A stretch of 50,038 bases of DNA from Candidatus Gastranaerophilales bacterium. Its GTDB lineage: Bacteria; Cyanobacteriota; Vampirovibrionia; Gastranaerophilales; Gastranaerophilaceae. Both the position numbers and the translations under genes were made by a program. Position 1 is the stretch's first letter. Every line of letters begins with the position of its first letter. Under the pieces are notes generated by a model that worked only from the letters and a program-made list of their open reading frames with translations, was not told the origin of the DNA and searched no databases. Positions 6,290 through 22,203 of the stretch are shown here, in pieces. The stretch is taken from positions 1-50,038 of the forward strand of contig CALUVW010000015.1 of NCBI GenBank assembly GCA_944324315.1. The letters run 5' to 3'.

Positions 6290-6372
6290 TATTAATAAAT
6301 TTATTTTGTAAATTTGTTTAATATTTATCTCAAAAAAATTGACTTAAAAATCTGCTTATTTTACTCTTTTGA

Positions 6373-6514
6373 ATAAGAGGGAATGGAGTGAATATCTCCA
6401 GCTGTGCCGCAACCGTAAAAGCCGGAATACTCGGAAAAACTTATTTCCTGCGAGCATTAGGAGTAAGATATATTTTTCTCAGTTGTCCTCTTATGAATTA
6501 AAATAGCAAGAGGA
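6373..6514 (+). promoter_or_regulatory. Cobalamin riboswitch upstream of an unknown cluster
   Basis: The cobalamin aptamer core is visible in order: GAATGGAGTGAATATCTCC, then CTGTGCCGCAACCGTAAAAG, then the box GCCGGAATACTCGG. A closing stem pairs TAAGAGG (6374-6380) with CCTCTTA (6487-6493). The same segment, TCCTCTT (6486-6492), is also perfectly complementary to AAGAGGA (6508-6514). AAGAGGA is the ribosome site of the gene at 6522 and is followed by six T. The two pairings exclude each other. If ligand stabilises the closing stem, the ribosome site or terminator hairpin opens, which predicts a B12-ON switch. That direction is inference; most known cobalamin riboswitches are OFF. Confidence 0.85.
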
Positions 6515-6521
6515 TTTTTTA

Positions 6522-7229
6522 ATGTCGCTTACGGCAGTACAAACAAACAGTACAAAGGTAGGAACTTGTCCGCATGGATTGCCTTTAGGGGCATGCCCTA
6601 TATGTAACGGCATGGGCGGAGGCGGCATGAAAAAAGCTGACTTTTCAGCTAAACCCGGAGAAATGAGCTGGAACGAATGTGCAGCAATAGGGGCTTTCTT
6701 AAAAGCTCAACAACAGGCAAAACTTCAACGGGAACAAGATGCGCAGAATTTTGCTCTAAGGGTTCAGGCATTTCAAAATGCATTGATAAATTCAAGCCAG
6801 AAACTTGCAAATATTGCACAATTTTTTACTAACAACACACCGGCAATAATTGCAAAACCTGTAAACTTTGTATTAAATACTGTTGTCGGAGGTATGTTAA
6901 GAACAATCGCAAACATCCCTGCAACTATCTCAAATGCAATACAAACAATTCAGCAAAAATTATCGGATATTTCAGATAAATTAACTGCAATGTTTGGAGA
7001 AATAAAAGCCTCAATTGAAAAGAAAATATCAGAAGCATTTAAAGATTTGAAAAAGAAAGTTAAATCATTGTTCTCTATATTTCAGCCTATGGATACTGAT
7101 AACGATGATAAGCAGATTGATGAAACCAAAAAAGCTTTTGAATTAAGAACATTTATACATGAACTTTACAAAAAGCTGACCGAAAATGAAAAGGATTTAA
7201 AAGAAAATGACAATCAGCCCGCTTCGTGA
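6522..7229 (+). CDS. Hypothetical protein with CPHG-CPIC zinc-type motif
   Basis: The N-terminus carries TCPHGLPLGACPICNGMGGG, so Cys16, His18, Cys25 and Cys28 are spaced like a small zinc site. I recognise this signature as recurrent in Gastranaerophilales proteins but know of no assigned function. The rest of the 235 residues is predicted to be mostly amphipathic helix (repeated QKL, TISNAIQTIQQKLSDISDKL). No signal peptide or certain membrane segment is seen; a weakly hydrophobic stretch lies at about residues 112-130. The ATG follows AAGAGGA, which the riboswitch can mask. It overlaps the next gene by 23 bases, so the two are co-translated and probably work together. Confidence 0.8.
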   Translation: MSLTAVQTNSTKVGTCPHGLPLGACPICNGMGGGGMKKADFSAKPGEMSWNECAAIGAFLKAQQQAKLQREQDAQNFALRVQAFQNALINSSQKLANIAQFFTNNTPAIIAKPVNFVLNTVVGGMLRTIANIPATISNAIQTIQQKLSDISDKLTAMFGEIKASIEKKISEAFKDLKKKVKSLFSIFQPMDTDNDDKQIDETKKAFELRTFIHELYKKLTENEKDLKENDNQPAS

Positions 7230-8679
7230 CAGCGAAACATTAAGACAACAAAAGAATTTAACAAATTCACAAAGGCGTGCAAACTCTGAAACAAAAGAAG
7301 GCGTTCTTGTTAATAATTTTATAAAAGACGAAACCGGCACTAACCTTGAAAATACCTGTGATACGCTTGTTATATCAGAGAGTGTAAAAATGCCTTCGAG
7401 GCTTTATGAAAAGACTCCTTATAAATCAAATATATTACCAATAAGCGCTATAACAATCGGAGTTATGGGAACAATTGCTCTTATGTCTGCTTTTGTAAGA
7501 CGTAACACAAGAATTAATTTGAAAATTTCAAATGAAAAGCGGCTTCCGGCGACAACAAGAAATGTTGCAATTAACGAAGAAACTCATCAGGCGCTGTATC
7601 AAATGATTCAAAGTCCGACAAGAAAAACTATCCACGCAGGAATTGGTGTATTAACTCTCACAGCTATGGCTTTTATGGGTAAAACATTTTTAGACGGTTT
7701 TAAAGAAGTTTGGGTAAAAAAACGTGAGGCTGATATTCAAAAAGATATGCAGGAACAACTTATTAATATAGAAACGCAGTCTTTTGCGGGTAAAATTCAG
7801 ATAACAAGGAGTATGCTTTCCGAAAAAGCCGGCGAATTTAGTAGATATCTATCTGATGAAAAAGATAAAATTCTTCCAAACTTCGGCAAACATCTGCAAT
7901 TTACAGGTAAAACAAAAAATAAAAGAAATCAGGAAAGTAATTTGAATTACTTTATGCTCGGTGCAGTAACAGTTGCCGGAATAGTCGGACTTGGCTATTT
8001 ATCTTTAAAAAATTTAAGTAAAAGTAAAAAATATCTTGAAAAAGCTGTAGAAAATACTGAAAACAAAATCACGGATATTGTTAAAAATTCATCAACTGCT
8101 ACCATAGAAAATGATAAAAAATTACTTGAAGCATATTTACAGTCAATAGATGCCCAAGAAGATACAATAAAAAAATATCTTGGAAATCTTAACTGGGATA
8201 AAAATGAACTTAATGAGTTTATACAAAAACTGGTAAAAAAATCCAAAACATCGACAACAAAAGTAAACGAAACAATAGGCGGTGACGGAACGCCAAAACC
8301 GACATTCTATTCCCATGTAGATGATTATAGAGCATTTTTCTACAACTGGCTTTTAGATACGGATAACAAGCAGTTTAAACAGTTGTTCTTTGGTATAACA
8401 GGACTGACAGCTATGAGTTATGGCGGTAAACTTGCAGGGGAAGCGATAAAGGAAGTTCAGGTAAAAAAATTAAACGCCAAAACGGAAGTTGAACTGCAAA
8501 ACCGACTTGTATCAACAGAATTGCGCAATTTTAAATCAAAAAAAGACGCCGCAATACAGCCGCTTGTAGATGAGTTTTATAAACAGGTCGATAAGGGAAA
8601 GCCAAAAGAAGAACTGAAAGTTATGGCAGATAATATATTATTCGAAATCAAAAACGGACCTCCGTTTGTGTATTCATAA
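7207..8679 (+). CDS. Multi-pass membrane protein of unknown function with internal duplication
   Basis: The family is not recognised. The 490-residue product has four hydrophobic segments (about 76-96, 141-165, 247-267 and 393-413) separated by long charged helical stretches. An internal duplication is visible: LTAMAFMGKTF...FKEVWVKKREA at about 147-175 matches LTAMSYGGKL...IKEVQVKKLNA at about 400-425. In both copies a helical tail containing an IE/TE...F pattern follows. The start lies inside the preceding gene (23-base overlap) behind AAAGGATTTAAAAGAAA. It is under the same cobalamin riboswitch. A B12-responsive envelope function is possible, but it resembles no known B12 transporter (no BtuC, BtuB or ECF signature). 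Confidence 0.8.
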   Translation: MTISPLRDSETLRQQKNLTNSQRRANSETKEGVLVNNFIKDETGTNLENTCDTLVISESVKMPSRLYEKTPYKSNILPISAITIGVMGTIALMSAFVRRNTRINLKISNEKRLPATTRNVAINEETHQALYQMIQSPTRKTIHAGIGVLTLTAMAFMGKTFLDGFKEVWVKKREADIQKDMQEQLINIETQSFAGKIQITRSMLSEKAGEFSRYLSDEKDKILPNFGKHLQFTGKTKNKRNQESNLNYFMLGAVTVAGIVGLGYLSLKNLSKSKKYLEKAVENTENKITDIVKNSSTATIENDKKLLEAYLQSIDAQEDTIKKYLGNLNWDKNELNEFIQKLVKKSKTSTTKVNETIGGDGTPKPTFYSHVDDYRAFFYNWLLDTDNKQFKQLFFGITGLTAMSYGGKLAGEAIKEVQVKKLNAKTEVELQNRLVSTELRNFKSKKDAAIQPLVDEFYKQVDKGKPKEELKVMADNILFEIKNGPPFVYS

Positions 8680-8692
8680 AAAGGAGTAATAA

Positions 8693-9196
8693 ATGACTTT
8701 AAGATGCATAGATGCAAAGATGCAAAGTCCTTATATATATAATACTAGTAATATACCTTGTTACTCATCTTGCCGTCTTCCACAAGGCAGCAGAAATTAT
8801 GCACTCTTTGACCAGAATAAAGTAGACTGCTTTGTTTCGCAAAAAGAAAATGCCCTGCCTTACCTTGCAGATATTTTAATTCATTCAAACAACGAGGCAG
8901 AGATTACAGAAACTTTGTACATTATTGACAGAATGGCAGATGAAGGCGTAAAAGGGATTGATAAAATGTATCCCGTTCTATCACGTTTCAACAATACAAC
9001 ATCCCCTAACATTCAGACATTTTTAGCAGGAATTTACAGAAAAACACAGGTTCCTGACGCCTTTGGTCCTCTTGTAAAAATGTTAATCCAAAATTCACTG
9101 CGCCCGCAAACATCTAATTTTGATCCTAATGAAGAAATCGGAGGAGCAATACTGGCTTACATTTCAGACCGTTTCAGAAACAAGCCGCAAAGATGA
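8693..9196 (+). CDS. Hypothetical helical protein, 167 aa
   Basis: The family is not recognised. After a tyrosine- and cysteine-containing N-terminus (about 1-35) the chain looks like consecutive short helices (ENALPYLADILIHS, EAEITETLYIIDRMADEGVKG, NIQTFLAGIYRK, FGPLVKMLIQNSL). That pattern is typical of HEAT- or armadillo-like alpha solenoids, but this is only a resemblance. It lies 13 bases after the membrane-protein gene with its own AAAAGGAG ribosome site, so it is the third member of the riboswitch-led cluster. No membrane segment or signal peptide is seen. Confidence 0.75.
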   Translation: MTLRCIDAKMQSPYIYNTSNIPCYSSCRLPQGSRNYALFDQNKVDCFVSQKENALPYLADILIHSNNEAEITETLYIIDRMADEGVKGIDKMYPVLSRFNNTTSPNIQTFLAGIYRKTQVPDAFGPLVKMLIQNSLRPQTSNFDPNEEIGGAILAYISDRFRNKPQR

Positions 9197-9304: not shown

Positions 9305-10459
9305 ATGGGAATGGCAGCATCACAAGCTAGATTTCTAGGTTTGACAGCCAGGAAAACCAATGTTGAATTTGAAGGTCAACAGATTAACCAACAAAGAACA
9401 ACATTGTCTAACCAGTCTGCTAACTACTACAACGATTTGTTGGGTATGTCAGTACCGGTTCCGCCGTCTGTCGATGATTACACAAAGACTGTGTATACTT
9501 TCGAGGATGGAGCTTTAACAAACCAGATTACCGCAATGATTGCTCAGGGGGACGGAACTTATACGGTAAGTTATCTGAGACAATGGAAGGATGATTTTGC
9601 AGTTGTTTCTGCAACAACAAGTATTGTTAATACTCCGGATAAAGAAAACGGTCCGTTCTATGTCGGCTCTACAAAATTAAGGGATATGTCGGATGCAATT
9701 ACTTATGACATAGATGGTACTACAGCTTATTATAATTCTGAAGATCAAAAATATTATACAGATCCGAATTTTACTGCAGGAACTGAAGTTGATACAACAG
9801 ATAAAACGGTTAAACTAAACAGTGAAGATGAATACTTAAAAACTCTTTCTCCTGATCAAATTGTAAATCTGCAGAAAGAAGAAGAACAATATTTATCTCT
9901 GCTTGAAGAAAAATACGGTACGGGTAACTATCTTGTAAGATACGTTAAAGACACTACAACAGGAGAATACAATCCGTATTTTTATAAACTTTCGGATTTA
10001 CAGACAGCTAACTATGATAATAACGGTAACTCTCAATCAAATATTAACTGTTATAAAATAGGAAGCGAAACAAAATCCGAAGAAGTGAAAGCCTCCACCG
10101 GCTGCAAGATAGAAAAAGACAGTTCAGGTCGTTATATTAATATAACAATACCTCAGTATGATGAGTCAGGCAATCCGATTGCAGATACAGGTGTAACTTA
10201 TGCACTCACAACATCTACAGTTACCGATCAGGATGCATACGATGATGCTATGAACCAGTATGAGTTTGAAAAATATGAATATGATCAAACAATACAAGAA
10301 ATTAACGCAAAAATAGAAATAGTTCAGGCTCAGGACAAAAACCTTGAACTGAGACTAAAACAACTCGATACAGAACAAGATGCTATTTCAACAGAAATGG
10401 ACGCTGTTCAAAAAGTTATTGAAAAAAACACAGAATCAACATTCAAAACATTCGGGTAG
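9305..10459 (+). CDS. MGMAASQAR-type protein with terminal helices and variable middle
   Basis: The N-terminus (MGMAASQARFLGLTARKTNV) is predicted helix and matches the product of 23810-25495. The C-terminus of both is a coiled coil ending in KNTESTFKTFG or KNIEKSFKRYNA. Between them lies a divergent, Thr/Asp/Asn/Tyr-rich region (about residues 60-310) that looks like a beta-rich domain. Two conserved terminal helices around a variable centre is the architecture of flagellin and hook-associated proteins, but no flagellin motif is present and no flagellar gene is nearby. No Sec signal peptide is seen, so export by a type III-like or unknown route is possible. I recognise the start as common in Gastranaerophilales, function unknown. 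The ribosome site is GAAAGGAAG. Confidence 0.8.
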   Translation: MGMAASQARFLGLTARKTNVEFEGQQINQQRTTLSNQSANYYNDLLGMSVPVPPSVDDYTKTVYTFEDGALTNQITAMIAQGDGTYTVSYLRQWKDDFAVVSATTSIVNTPDKENGPFYVGSTKLRDMSDAITYDIDGTTAYYNSEDQKYYTDPNFTAGTEVDTTDKTVKLNSEDEYLKTLSPDQIVNLQKEEEQYLSLLEEKYGTGNYLVRYVKDTTTGEYNPYFYKLSDLQTANYDNNGNSQSNINCYKIGSETKSEEVKASTGCKIEKDSSGRYINITIPQYDESGNPIADTGVTYALTTSTVTDQDAYDDAMNQYEFEKYEYDQTIQEINAKIEIVQAQDKNLELRLKQLDTEQDAISTEMDAVQKVIEKNTESTFKTFG

Positions 10460-20199: not shown

Positions 20200-20341
20200 A
20201 CTACTGTAAGGAAAGCATGGGTGAAATTCCCACACTGGACCGCAGCCGTGTCATATTTACAAAGTTTGTAAATTGACCTCTTTAAAGAAAAGAGATAGTC
20301 GGAATGCTTGCAGAAGTTGATGTTACCACGGAAATCTGGGA
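20200..20341 (+). promoter_or_regulatory. Cobalamin riboswitch of nrdD
   Basis: The aptamer core reads GGAAAGCATGGGTGAAATTC, then CCACACTGGACCGCAGCCGT, then AGTCGGAATGCTTGC. AAGCAT pairs with ATGCTT as the P2 stem, and the GGGTGAA and CCGCAGCCGT boxes match the consensus. Downstream, AAATCT-GGG-AGATTT (20332-20346) can fold with the GGGAG ribosome site in its loop and stem, so translational control is likely. Repression by B12 of a B12-independent ribonucleotide reductase is the known logic for class I and class III enzymes in species that also have the class II enzyme. Confidence 0.92.
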
Positions 20342-20352
20342 GATTTTTTATT

Positions 20353-22203
20353 ATGAACAATACAATTTTGAATGACAACAAAGTTGTCAATTTGGACACC
20401 GCCAAACGTGCGTTTATGTCAAATCCTGTTGCATCTGACAAAGATGTAAACATTAATCTTGTTGAAGGGTATTTAAAAAAACTTGATTGGAAAGTTAATG
20501 AAAATTCAAATATGGCTTATTCAATTCAAGGATTGAATAATTATATTTCGTCCGAAATAAGCAAGCAGTACTGGCTGAATAAAATCTATCCTGTAGAGAT
20601 TAAAAATGCTCACCTTAATGGGGATATTCATATTCATGACTTGAATATAATTTCAGTTTATTGTGTCGGATGGGATTTAAAAGATTTGTTGAGTGAAGGT
20701 TTTACAGGTGTAAGAGGAAAAATAGAAAGTGCGCCTGCAAAACATTTTAGAACTGCTTTAGGACAAATTGTGAATTTTATGTATACTATGCAGGGCGAAG
20801 CTGCTGGGGCTCAGGCTTTTTCTAATTTTGATACACTTCTTGCTCCTTTTATAAGTTATGATAATCTTGATTACAAGCAGGTAAAACAGGCATTACAGGA
20901 ATTTATTTTTAATATGAATGTCCCTACCCGTGTAGGATTTCAGACTCCTTTTACAAATATTACAATGGATTTAAACGTTCCTTCATATTATGCTGAACAG
21001 CCGGTTATAATAGGCGGAGAGCTTCAGGAGCGTACTTATAAAGAGTTTCAAAAAGAAATGGATATGCTTAATAAAGCTTTTTTTGAAGTGATGATGGAAG
21101 GCGACAATGCAGGACGTGTATTTACATTTCCAATTCCAACATATAATATTACAAAAGATTTTGACTGGGATAATGAAAATATCAACGGACTCTGGGAAAT
21201 GGCTGCAAAATATGGCATTCCTTATTTTTCCAACTTTATTAATTCGGATATGTCACCTGAGGATGCCCGTTCTATGTGCTGTCGTTTGAGAATTGACAAC
21301 AGAGAACTTGAATACAGAGGCGGAGGTCTTTTTGGCTCAAATCCTCTGACTGGTTCTGTCGGGGTTGTTACAATTAATCTTCCTAAAATTGCAGAGATTT
21401 CGAAAACTAAAGGAGAATTTCTTGAAAGGCTTGCACAAAAGATGGAACTTGCAAAAGAAAGTCTTGAGATTAAACGTAAGCTGCTGGAAGATTTGACAGA
21501 TAAAGATTTGTACCCTTATACAAAATTTTATTTAAGAGATATTAAAGCCCGCTTTGGTGTTTACTGGAAAAATCACTTCTCTACAATCGGATTAATCGGT
21601 ATGAATGAAGCTTGTTTAAATCTTCTTGGTTCTGATATCGGAAGTTTTAGAGGGAAACAATTTGCTCTTGAGGTTATGGATTATATGAGAGCAAAAATCG
21701 TTGAATTTCAAAAACAAACAGGCAACAACTATAACCTTGAGGCAACGCCAGGGGAAGGATCATCCTACAGGCTGGCAAAACTTGATAAAGAAAAATACCC
21801 GTATTATACAAATTCTACCCAGTTACCAGTTAATTATACGGATGATATTTTTGAAGTTCTTGATCATCAGGATGATTTGCAAACCAAATATACAGGCGGG
21901 ACGGTTGTTCATATTTATGCAGGAGAAAGAATACAAAGTACTGAAACAATGAAAAGTCTAGTTAAAAAGGTTTGCAATAATTATCATCTACCATATTTTA
22001 CATTTTCGCCGACATTCAGTACCTGCCCTAACCACGGGTATATCTCAGGTGAACATTTTACCTGTCCTGAATGCGGTGAAAGTTGCGAAGTTTATTCCCG
22101 TGTTGTAGGTTATATAAGACCTGTTCAACAATGGAATAAAGGTAAAAAACAAGAGTTTGCAGATAGAAAAGAATTTAAAATTGAGGAATGTCAATGCAAA
22201 TAG
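20353..22203 (+). CDS. nrdD: Anaerobic (class III) ribonucleoside-triphosphate reductase
   Basis: This glycyl-radical enzyme reduces ribonucleotides without oxygen. The radical glycine is Gly586 in SRVVGYIRPVQQWNKGK near the C-terminus. The preceding zinc site shows CPNH and CPECGESC, and the catalytic cysteine region is SMCCRLRIDNRELEYRGGG. I see no N-terminal ATP-cone; the 616-residue chain starts directly with the fold, like the Thermotoga form. The frame is open to 20308, but that ATG lies inside the riboswitch. ATG 20353 follows GGGAG and is chosen. It overlaps nrdG by ten bases. Regulation is by the cobalamin riboswitch upstream. Confidence 0.95.
   Translation: MNNTILNDNKVVNLDTAKRAFMSNPVASDKDVNINLVEGYLKKLDWKVNENSNMAYSIQGLNNYISSEISKQYWLNKIYPVEIKNAHLNGDIHIHDLNIISVYCVGWDLKDLLSEGFTGVRGKIESAPAKHFRTALGQIVNFMYTMQGEAAGAQAFSNFDTLLAPFISYDNLDYKQVKQALQEFIFNMNVPTRVGFQTPFTNITMDLNVPSYYAEQPVIIGGELQERTYKEFQKEMDMLNKAFFEVMMEGDNAGRVFTFPIPTYNITKDFDWDNENINGLWEMAAKYGIPYFSNFINSDMSPEDARSMCCRLRIDNRELEYRGGGLFGSNPLTGSVGVVTINLPKIAEISKTKGEFLERLAQKMELAKESLEIKRKLLEDLTDKDLYPYTKFYLRDIKARFGVYWKNHFSTIGLIGMNEACLNLLGSDIGSFRGKQFALEVMDYMRAKIVEFQKQTGNNYNLEATPGEGSSYRLAKLDKEKYPYYTNSTQLPVNYTDDIFEVLDHQDDLQTKYTGGTVVHIYAGERIQSTETMKSLVKKVCNNYHLPYFTFSPTFSTCPNHGYISGEHFTCPECGESCEVYSRVVGYIRPVQQWNKGKKQEFADRKEFKIEECQCK

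Follow-up and report, generated by a model that had tools for sequence, protein, structure and literature searches.

What does a cobalamin riboswitch control when the genes behind it resemble none of its usual targets? Described cobalamin riboswitch regulons comprise B12 synthesis, transport of B12 or its precursors, cobalt transport and isozymes of B12-dependent enzymes (PMC3766115), and by homology the three genes considered here, P1, P2 and P3, match none of these categories. They lie in a 50,038-nucleotide stretch of DNA from a Candidatus Gastranaerophilales bacterium, referred to here as the window. A preliminary description had proposed an undescribed three-gene cluster under B12 control, with P1 and P2 overlapping by 23 bases. 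We found the open reading frames where it placed them, all on the forward strand: P1 at 6522-7229 (235 amino acids), P2 at 7207-8679 (490 amino acids) and P3 at 8693-9196 (167 amino acids), with the overlap at 7207-7229. The riboswitch that it set ahead of them is an RF01689 match at 6366-6437, just upstream of the 6522-9196 stretch that it covered. Its central claim is strongly supported, as the riboswitch is conserved before homologues and none of the three proteins has a family match. We conclude that P1, P2 and P3, each from an undescribed protein family, make up a unit that stands under two classes of cobalamin riboswitch across the order.

Upstream of the trio lie an RND/TolC efflux set and a gene of 93 amino acids. 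Downstream come a 384-amino-acid protein and, named from sequence and not by family search, a polyprenyl synthase and a signal peptidase. The 384-amino-acid protein (9305-10459, forward strand), which starts MGMAASQARFLGLTARK and has no family match, has homologues that follow the trio in some relatives and lie elsewhere in others. At its far end, the window breaks off 66 bases into a 16S rRNA gene (49973-50038, forward strand).

The aptamer belongs to the AdoCbl-II type (class II cobalamin), scoring 42.0 bits where the gathering score is 36.5, and the source genome has no other RF01689 match. The aptamer and the elements described next are on the forward strand. Folding the stretch behind the aptamer yielded two hairpins, P13 and an expression platform; when the whole leader was folded without ligand, a different pairing appeared. 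P13 (6440-6467) has equivalents in relatives and presents the loop L13, CGAGCAU (6451-6457), which would pair with the L5 loop of the aptamer (GUGCC, 6404-6408) in a putative kissing loop. Pairing between L5 and L13 is a known mechanism of cobalamin riboswitches (PMC9600662). Across leaders the two loops covary, with GTGC accompanied by GCAY, GTAGC by GCTGT and CTGC by GCAG, and their mean complementarity over 62 distinct leader pairs was reached by 0 of 2,000 shuffles, a procedure that leaves relatedness in.

The platform hairpin (6485-6515) reads as a terminator and/or a translational block. Its 3' arm (6508-6515) is the Shine-Dalgarno sequence, with a run of U residues between it and the start codon, and the two arms of the hairpin change together across leaders (GTCCTCTT/AAGAGGAT, CCTTAC/GTAAGG and CCTTGTG/CACAAGG). 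Under one set of criteria, hairpins holding the Shine-Dalgarno sequence were present at 94 of 116 P1 starts compared with 15 of 445 other starts at the same loci; requiring the U run as well left 87 of 116 and 1 of 445, respectively. Judged from these patterns, the predicted switch of the trio looks complete, combining a covarying kissing loop with a terminator-like hairpin that would bury the ribosome-binding site.

Of 146 genomes sampled from the order, 132 contain P1, almost always as a single copy; a 133rd match, in genome G108, is a short fragment interrupted by seven stops. An RF01689 match lies upstream of P1 on the same strand at no fewer than 107 of the 132 loci, at distances of 27-352 nt (median 85 nt) among the matches listed. 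Nine of the remaining P1 loci were rechecked for cobalamin switches under laxer settings. Sub-threshold RF01689 matches were in place at three (L052, L061 and L053), and four (L068, L070, L071 and L050) carry, instead of RF01689, the other class of cobalamin riboswitch, RF00174, above its gathering score; at the other two (L065 and L054) this recheck returned neither model before P1. That one class of B12 switch has taken the place of another before the same gene speaks for selection.

Conservation extends to the gene order but stops at the borders of the trio. Across 40 diverse loci, P1 and P2 are adjacent in all 40, P3 comes next in most, and the flanking genes differ; a larger operon around the trio was ruled out on the grounds that these flanks are not conserved. 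Among 80 further loci of relatives, P1 was present in 79 and P3 in 76. Some of these records bear names such as Fusobacterium, Alphaproteobacteria or Heliobacteriaceae, apparently through misnaming of the assemblies. A P2 profile matched 183 of 289 genomes of the class, all of them within the order except for two marginal hits.

One family of the order (loci L184-L189) has a second gene resembling P1, which seems to lack the CPHG motif. It is followed there by a secreted-looking protein of 270-326 amino acids; this neighbour has no Pfam match where tested, and the second gene therefore offers no clue to function.

Homology searches gave little to name the proteins by. Against Pfam, NCBIfam and PHROGs, P1, P2 and P3 returned weak coiled-coil-type matches only, below every curated cut-off, and their sequence profiles found nothing significant among solved structures. 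With these family searches, the profile comparisons and a fold search with the P2 model, we found no remote homology to a known transporter. Operons under cobalamin riboswitches are well known; P1, P2 and P3 themselves are in no described family found here. In open-access texts, where absence is no proof, we found nothing relevant on the trio or on a B12 switch in Gastranaerophilales or Melainabacteria.

P1 carries the CPHG and CPIC motifs noticed previously, and these are invariant in alignments of its family (C16-P-H18-G ... C25-P-x-C28, codons 6567-6605, forward strand). Motif spacing makes this N-terminal arrangement a probable metal site. We rejected CPHG as a B12-ligand motif of the DxHxxG kind, whose spacing does not fit. 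The rest of P1 is helical and amphipathic, with one weakly hydrophobic stretch.

P2 had been presented as a four-helix membrane protein, and part of this description stood. Hydropathy supports two strong membrane segments (residues 79-97 and 249-267) and a weaker one (144-162), but the fourth, a weak segment at about 388-410, is only partly certain, being suggested by its likeness to the repeat at 144-162 and by a low-confidence fold. The protein contains an internal repeat whose first copy (residues 121-205; 7567-7821, forward strand) joins a membrane helix to a long charged helix and whose second spans residues 369-455 (8311-8571, forward strand); comparing the two halves with hhalign gave a probability of 97.7 (E 2.3e-12). 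In the structural model, which has a low pLDDT of 61.7, two very long helices run through residues 139-215 and 388-462, and searching this fold against the PDB produced no usable match. The C terminus, IKNGPPFVYS, is conserved.

P3 is predicted to be an armadillo/HEAT-like alpha solenoid of seven helices (pLDDT 86.3). Compared with armadillo/HEAT proteins, its predicted fold reached Z 10.6-11.5 over 106-128 residues in the top rows, with Foldseek E-values above 0.05, and P3 has no Pfam match. Helical repeats reach Z values of about 11 readily, and the score may reflect shared arrangement alone, with no sequence relation or shared function implied. An export signal was not seen in either P1 or P3.

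The other genes under the same switch indicate when the trio is likely to be expressed. We read 20 other RF01689 loci in the same genomes, and the targets that could be named are nrdD (or nrdD-nrdG), btuB-btuC-btuD-btuF, metE and one B12-binding radical SAM gene. All belong to the usual target classes (PMC3766115) and, with the exception of the radical SAM gene, they are wanted at low B12. By analogy with them, and because of the form of the platform, the trio is probably expressed when B12 is low, under an OFF switch. Several of the other leaders hold the Shine-Dalgarno sequence in a hairpin close behind the aptamer; the long, terminator-like platform of the P1 leaders was not seen in the other RF01689 leaders examined.

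The B12-binding radical SAM protein (L087:2878-4281, forward strand) stands directly behind its AdoCbl-II match; for an OFF switch, it would be an uncommon target. A 541-amino-acid gene behind another RF01689 match (L084:6216-7841, reverse strand) has a MetE-like start and then diverges, the mark of either a MetE-start fusion or a recombined leader, and adjoins a second switch leading nrdD. The window has an NrdD gene of its own (20308-22203, forward strand; PF13597, E 1.9e-205), which has no AdoCbl-II match of its own, unlike nrdD in many relatives, where it lies behind such a switch.

We then surveyed how the order obtains and spends B12. NrdJ, the AdoCbl-dependent ribonucleotide reductase, is present above cut-off in 105 of 146 genomes, or 108 when fragments at contig edges are included, with presence assigned by hand from the match table; radical SAM-type B12-binding domains are common in the order. 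BtuB homologues occur in 9 of 146 genomes and the FecCD permease (BtuC) in the same 9, the permease search being positive in 13 of 14 control genomes. The corrin-ring enzyme CbiC and the MetH cap domain are each found in 3 of 146, and PduO-type adenosyltransferase was not found in any of the 146. A 2013 description of the lineage lists synthesis of vitamins B2, B3, B5, B7, B9 and K and does not mention B12 (PMC3787301).

Within the 1.81 of 1.88 Mb that was read (~96%), the source genome encodes NrdJ and two BtuR/CobA-type adenosyltransferases (PF02572), located about 8 kb apart on contig C6 (L270:522-1100 and L270:9522-10055), and it returned no homologue of BtuB, BtuC, BtuF or SbmA and no CbiC match. 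With two BtuR genes and NrdJ, it has the means to adenosylate corrinoids and to use them, although it seems unable to make them and no known importer for them was found. ECF (CbrT), BtuM or a similar importer may still be present in genomes of the order: a crude motif search for EcfT was without a match but is too weak to count. P2 itself has no Pfam or NCBIfam match.

The trio is absent from 13 of the 146 genomes, with G133 counted as positive since P2 was found there. Some trio-less genomes have NrdJ together with another source of B12, either CbiC (G002, G004 and G019) or Btu (G009 and G011); others have no NrdJ (G016, G020, G086, G108, G114, G140 and G145, the first two being incomplete genomes). 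G101 has NrdJ and lacks the trio, Btu and CbiC. Among NrdJ genomes, 5 of the 6 that lack the trio have Btu or CbiC, versus 3 of the 102 that carry the trio (Fisher p 3e-6), and among genomes without Btu or CbiC, NrdJ is absent from 6 of 7 that lack the trio versus 28 of 127 that have it (p 0.001); both tests treat the genomes as independent, though they are related and the independent changes number perhaps five to seven. Stated the other way, and uncorrected for relatedness, the trio occurs in 99 of 100 NrdJ genomes without Btu or CbiC, with G101 as the exception. Of the 28 genomes that have the trio but none of NrdJ, Btu and CbiC, some encode B12-binding radical SAM proteins, and a few genomes of the order carry both Btu and the trio.

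The switch, its fellow targets and this complementary distribution all agree, and for that reason we favour, at a probability of roughly one half, the reading that the trio is a B12-repressed module for acquiring cobamides. Nearly all genomes with the trio have no Btu importer and are unable to make B12, which suggests that the trio helps to obtain it. When AdoCbl is plentiful, the switch would close the hairpin around the ribosome-binding site, turning the trio off. When AdoCbl is scarce, P1, the translationally coupled P2 and P3 would be made and would raise the entry or retention of cobamides, and the cobamide gained would pass to the two BtuR adenosyltransferases and NrdJ. The membrane core could be P2, which has two membrane-helix-plus-stalk repeats, with P1 as its metal-motif partner and P3 as a protein-binding adaptor. 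Several observations pull the other way: the proteins have no similarity to transporters, membrane segments are few in P2 and the trio lacks an ATPase gene, and there remain G101, the 28 trio genomes without NrdJ, Btu or CbiC, and the few with both Btu and the trio. We hold as tentative, and on balance doubt, the further proposal that throughout the order BtuBCDF has given way to P1-P2-P3 as a new machinery for cobamide uptake, one with no relation to Btu, ECF or BtuM.

The preliminary description had instead assigned the cluster a B12-linked envelope function. Control of the cluster by a B12 riboswitch is strongly supported, but the envelope wording is too loose, since only P2 is clearly a membrane protein, P1 and P3 show no visible export signal and the distribution of the genes suggests B12 acquisition. 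B12 transport had been set aside there as unlike the cluster; the gene distribution points to it.

Other functions have to be weighed against cobamide acquisition. Like nrdD and metE, the trio might stand in for B12-dependent metabolism when AdoCbl is scarce, or it might remodel the envelope of cells starved of B12. Such a role would leave unexplained why genomes do without the trio mainly when they import or make B12 or have no need of it. P1, P2 and P3 also resemble no enzyme in Pfam, NCBIfam, PHROGs or structure-profile searches, and no B12 enzyme pairs with the trio as NrdJ pairs with NrdD. We consider a stand-in role unlikely, even though B12-independent isozymes are among the targets of cobalamin switches, nrdD and metE being the cases here, and the trio persists in the 28 genomes without NrdJ and without Btu or CbiC. 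Alternatively, the three proteins might handle cobamides inside the cell, by storage, remodelling or hand-over at the inner membrane face, and not carry them across. The invariant Cys/His motif of P1, the predicted binding-type solenoid of P3, the export signals not seen and the two BtuR genes of the genome would all suit this role, which nonetheless fails to account for import in genomes without Btu or for the membrane protein P2 that accompanies P1 in 40 of 40 diverse loci; we regard it as improbable. Least credible is a general conserved operon that acquired its switch by chance in an ancestor and has no B12 role, for although a protein-level link to B12 is absent and conservation inside one order could be inheritance, the switch covaries, the platform stays constrained, a second switch class substitutes at the same place and genomes without the trio tend to lack NrdJ or to have another B12 source.

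Many gut bacteria rely on B12 from others, and competition for the vitamin shapes the community. Most genomes of this order have a B12-dependent ribonucleotide reductase, yet neither corrin synthesis nor a known Btu importer. If the trio fills the importer gap, it would be a route of B12 acquisition missed by current annotation; even otherwise, the three undescribed families and their conserved B12 switch offer a concrete way into the B12 physiology of a lineage that is mostly uncultured.

Two known systems provide the closest comparisons. The back-up genes nrdD and metE have the cobalamin switch and low-B12 expression in common with the trio, but they are enzymes with B12-dependent counterparts, whereas P1, P2 and P3 show no enzyme family. 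From the BtuB-BtuCDF import operons the trio differs in its parts, having no sequence similarity to them and no TonB-dependent receptor, FecCD permease, ATPase or binding protein. What it shares with these operons, which 9 of 146 genomes of the order carry, is an OFF-type switch and a likely purpose.
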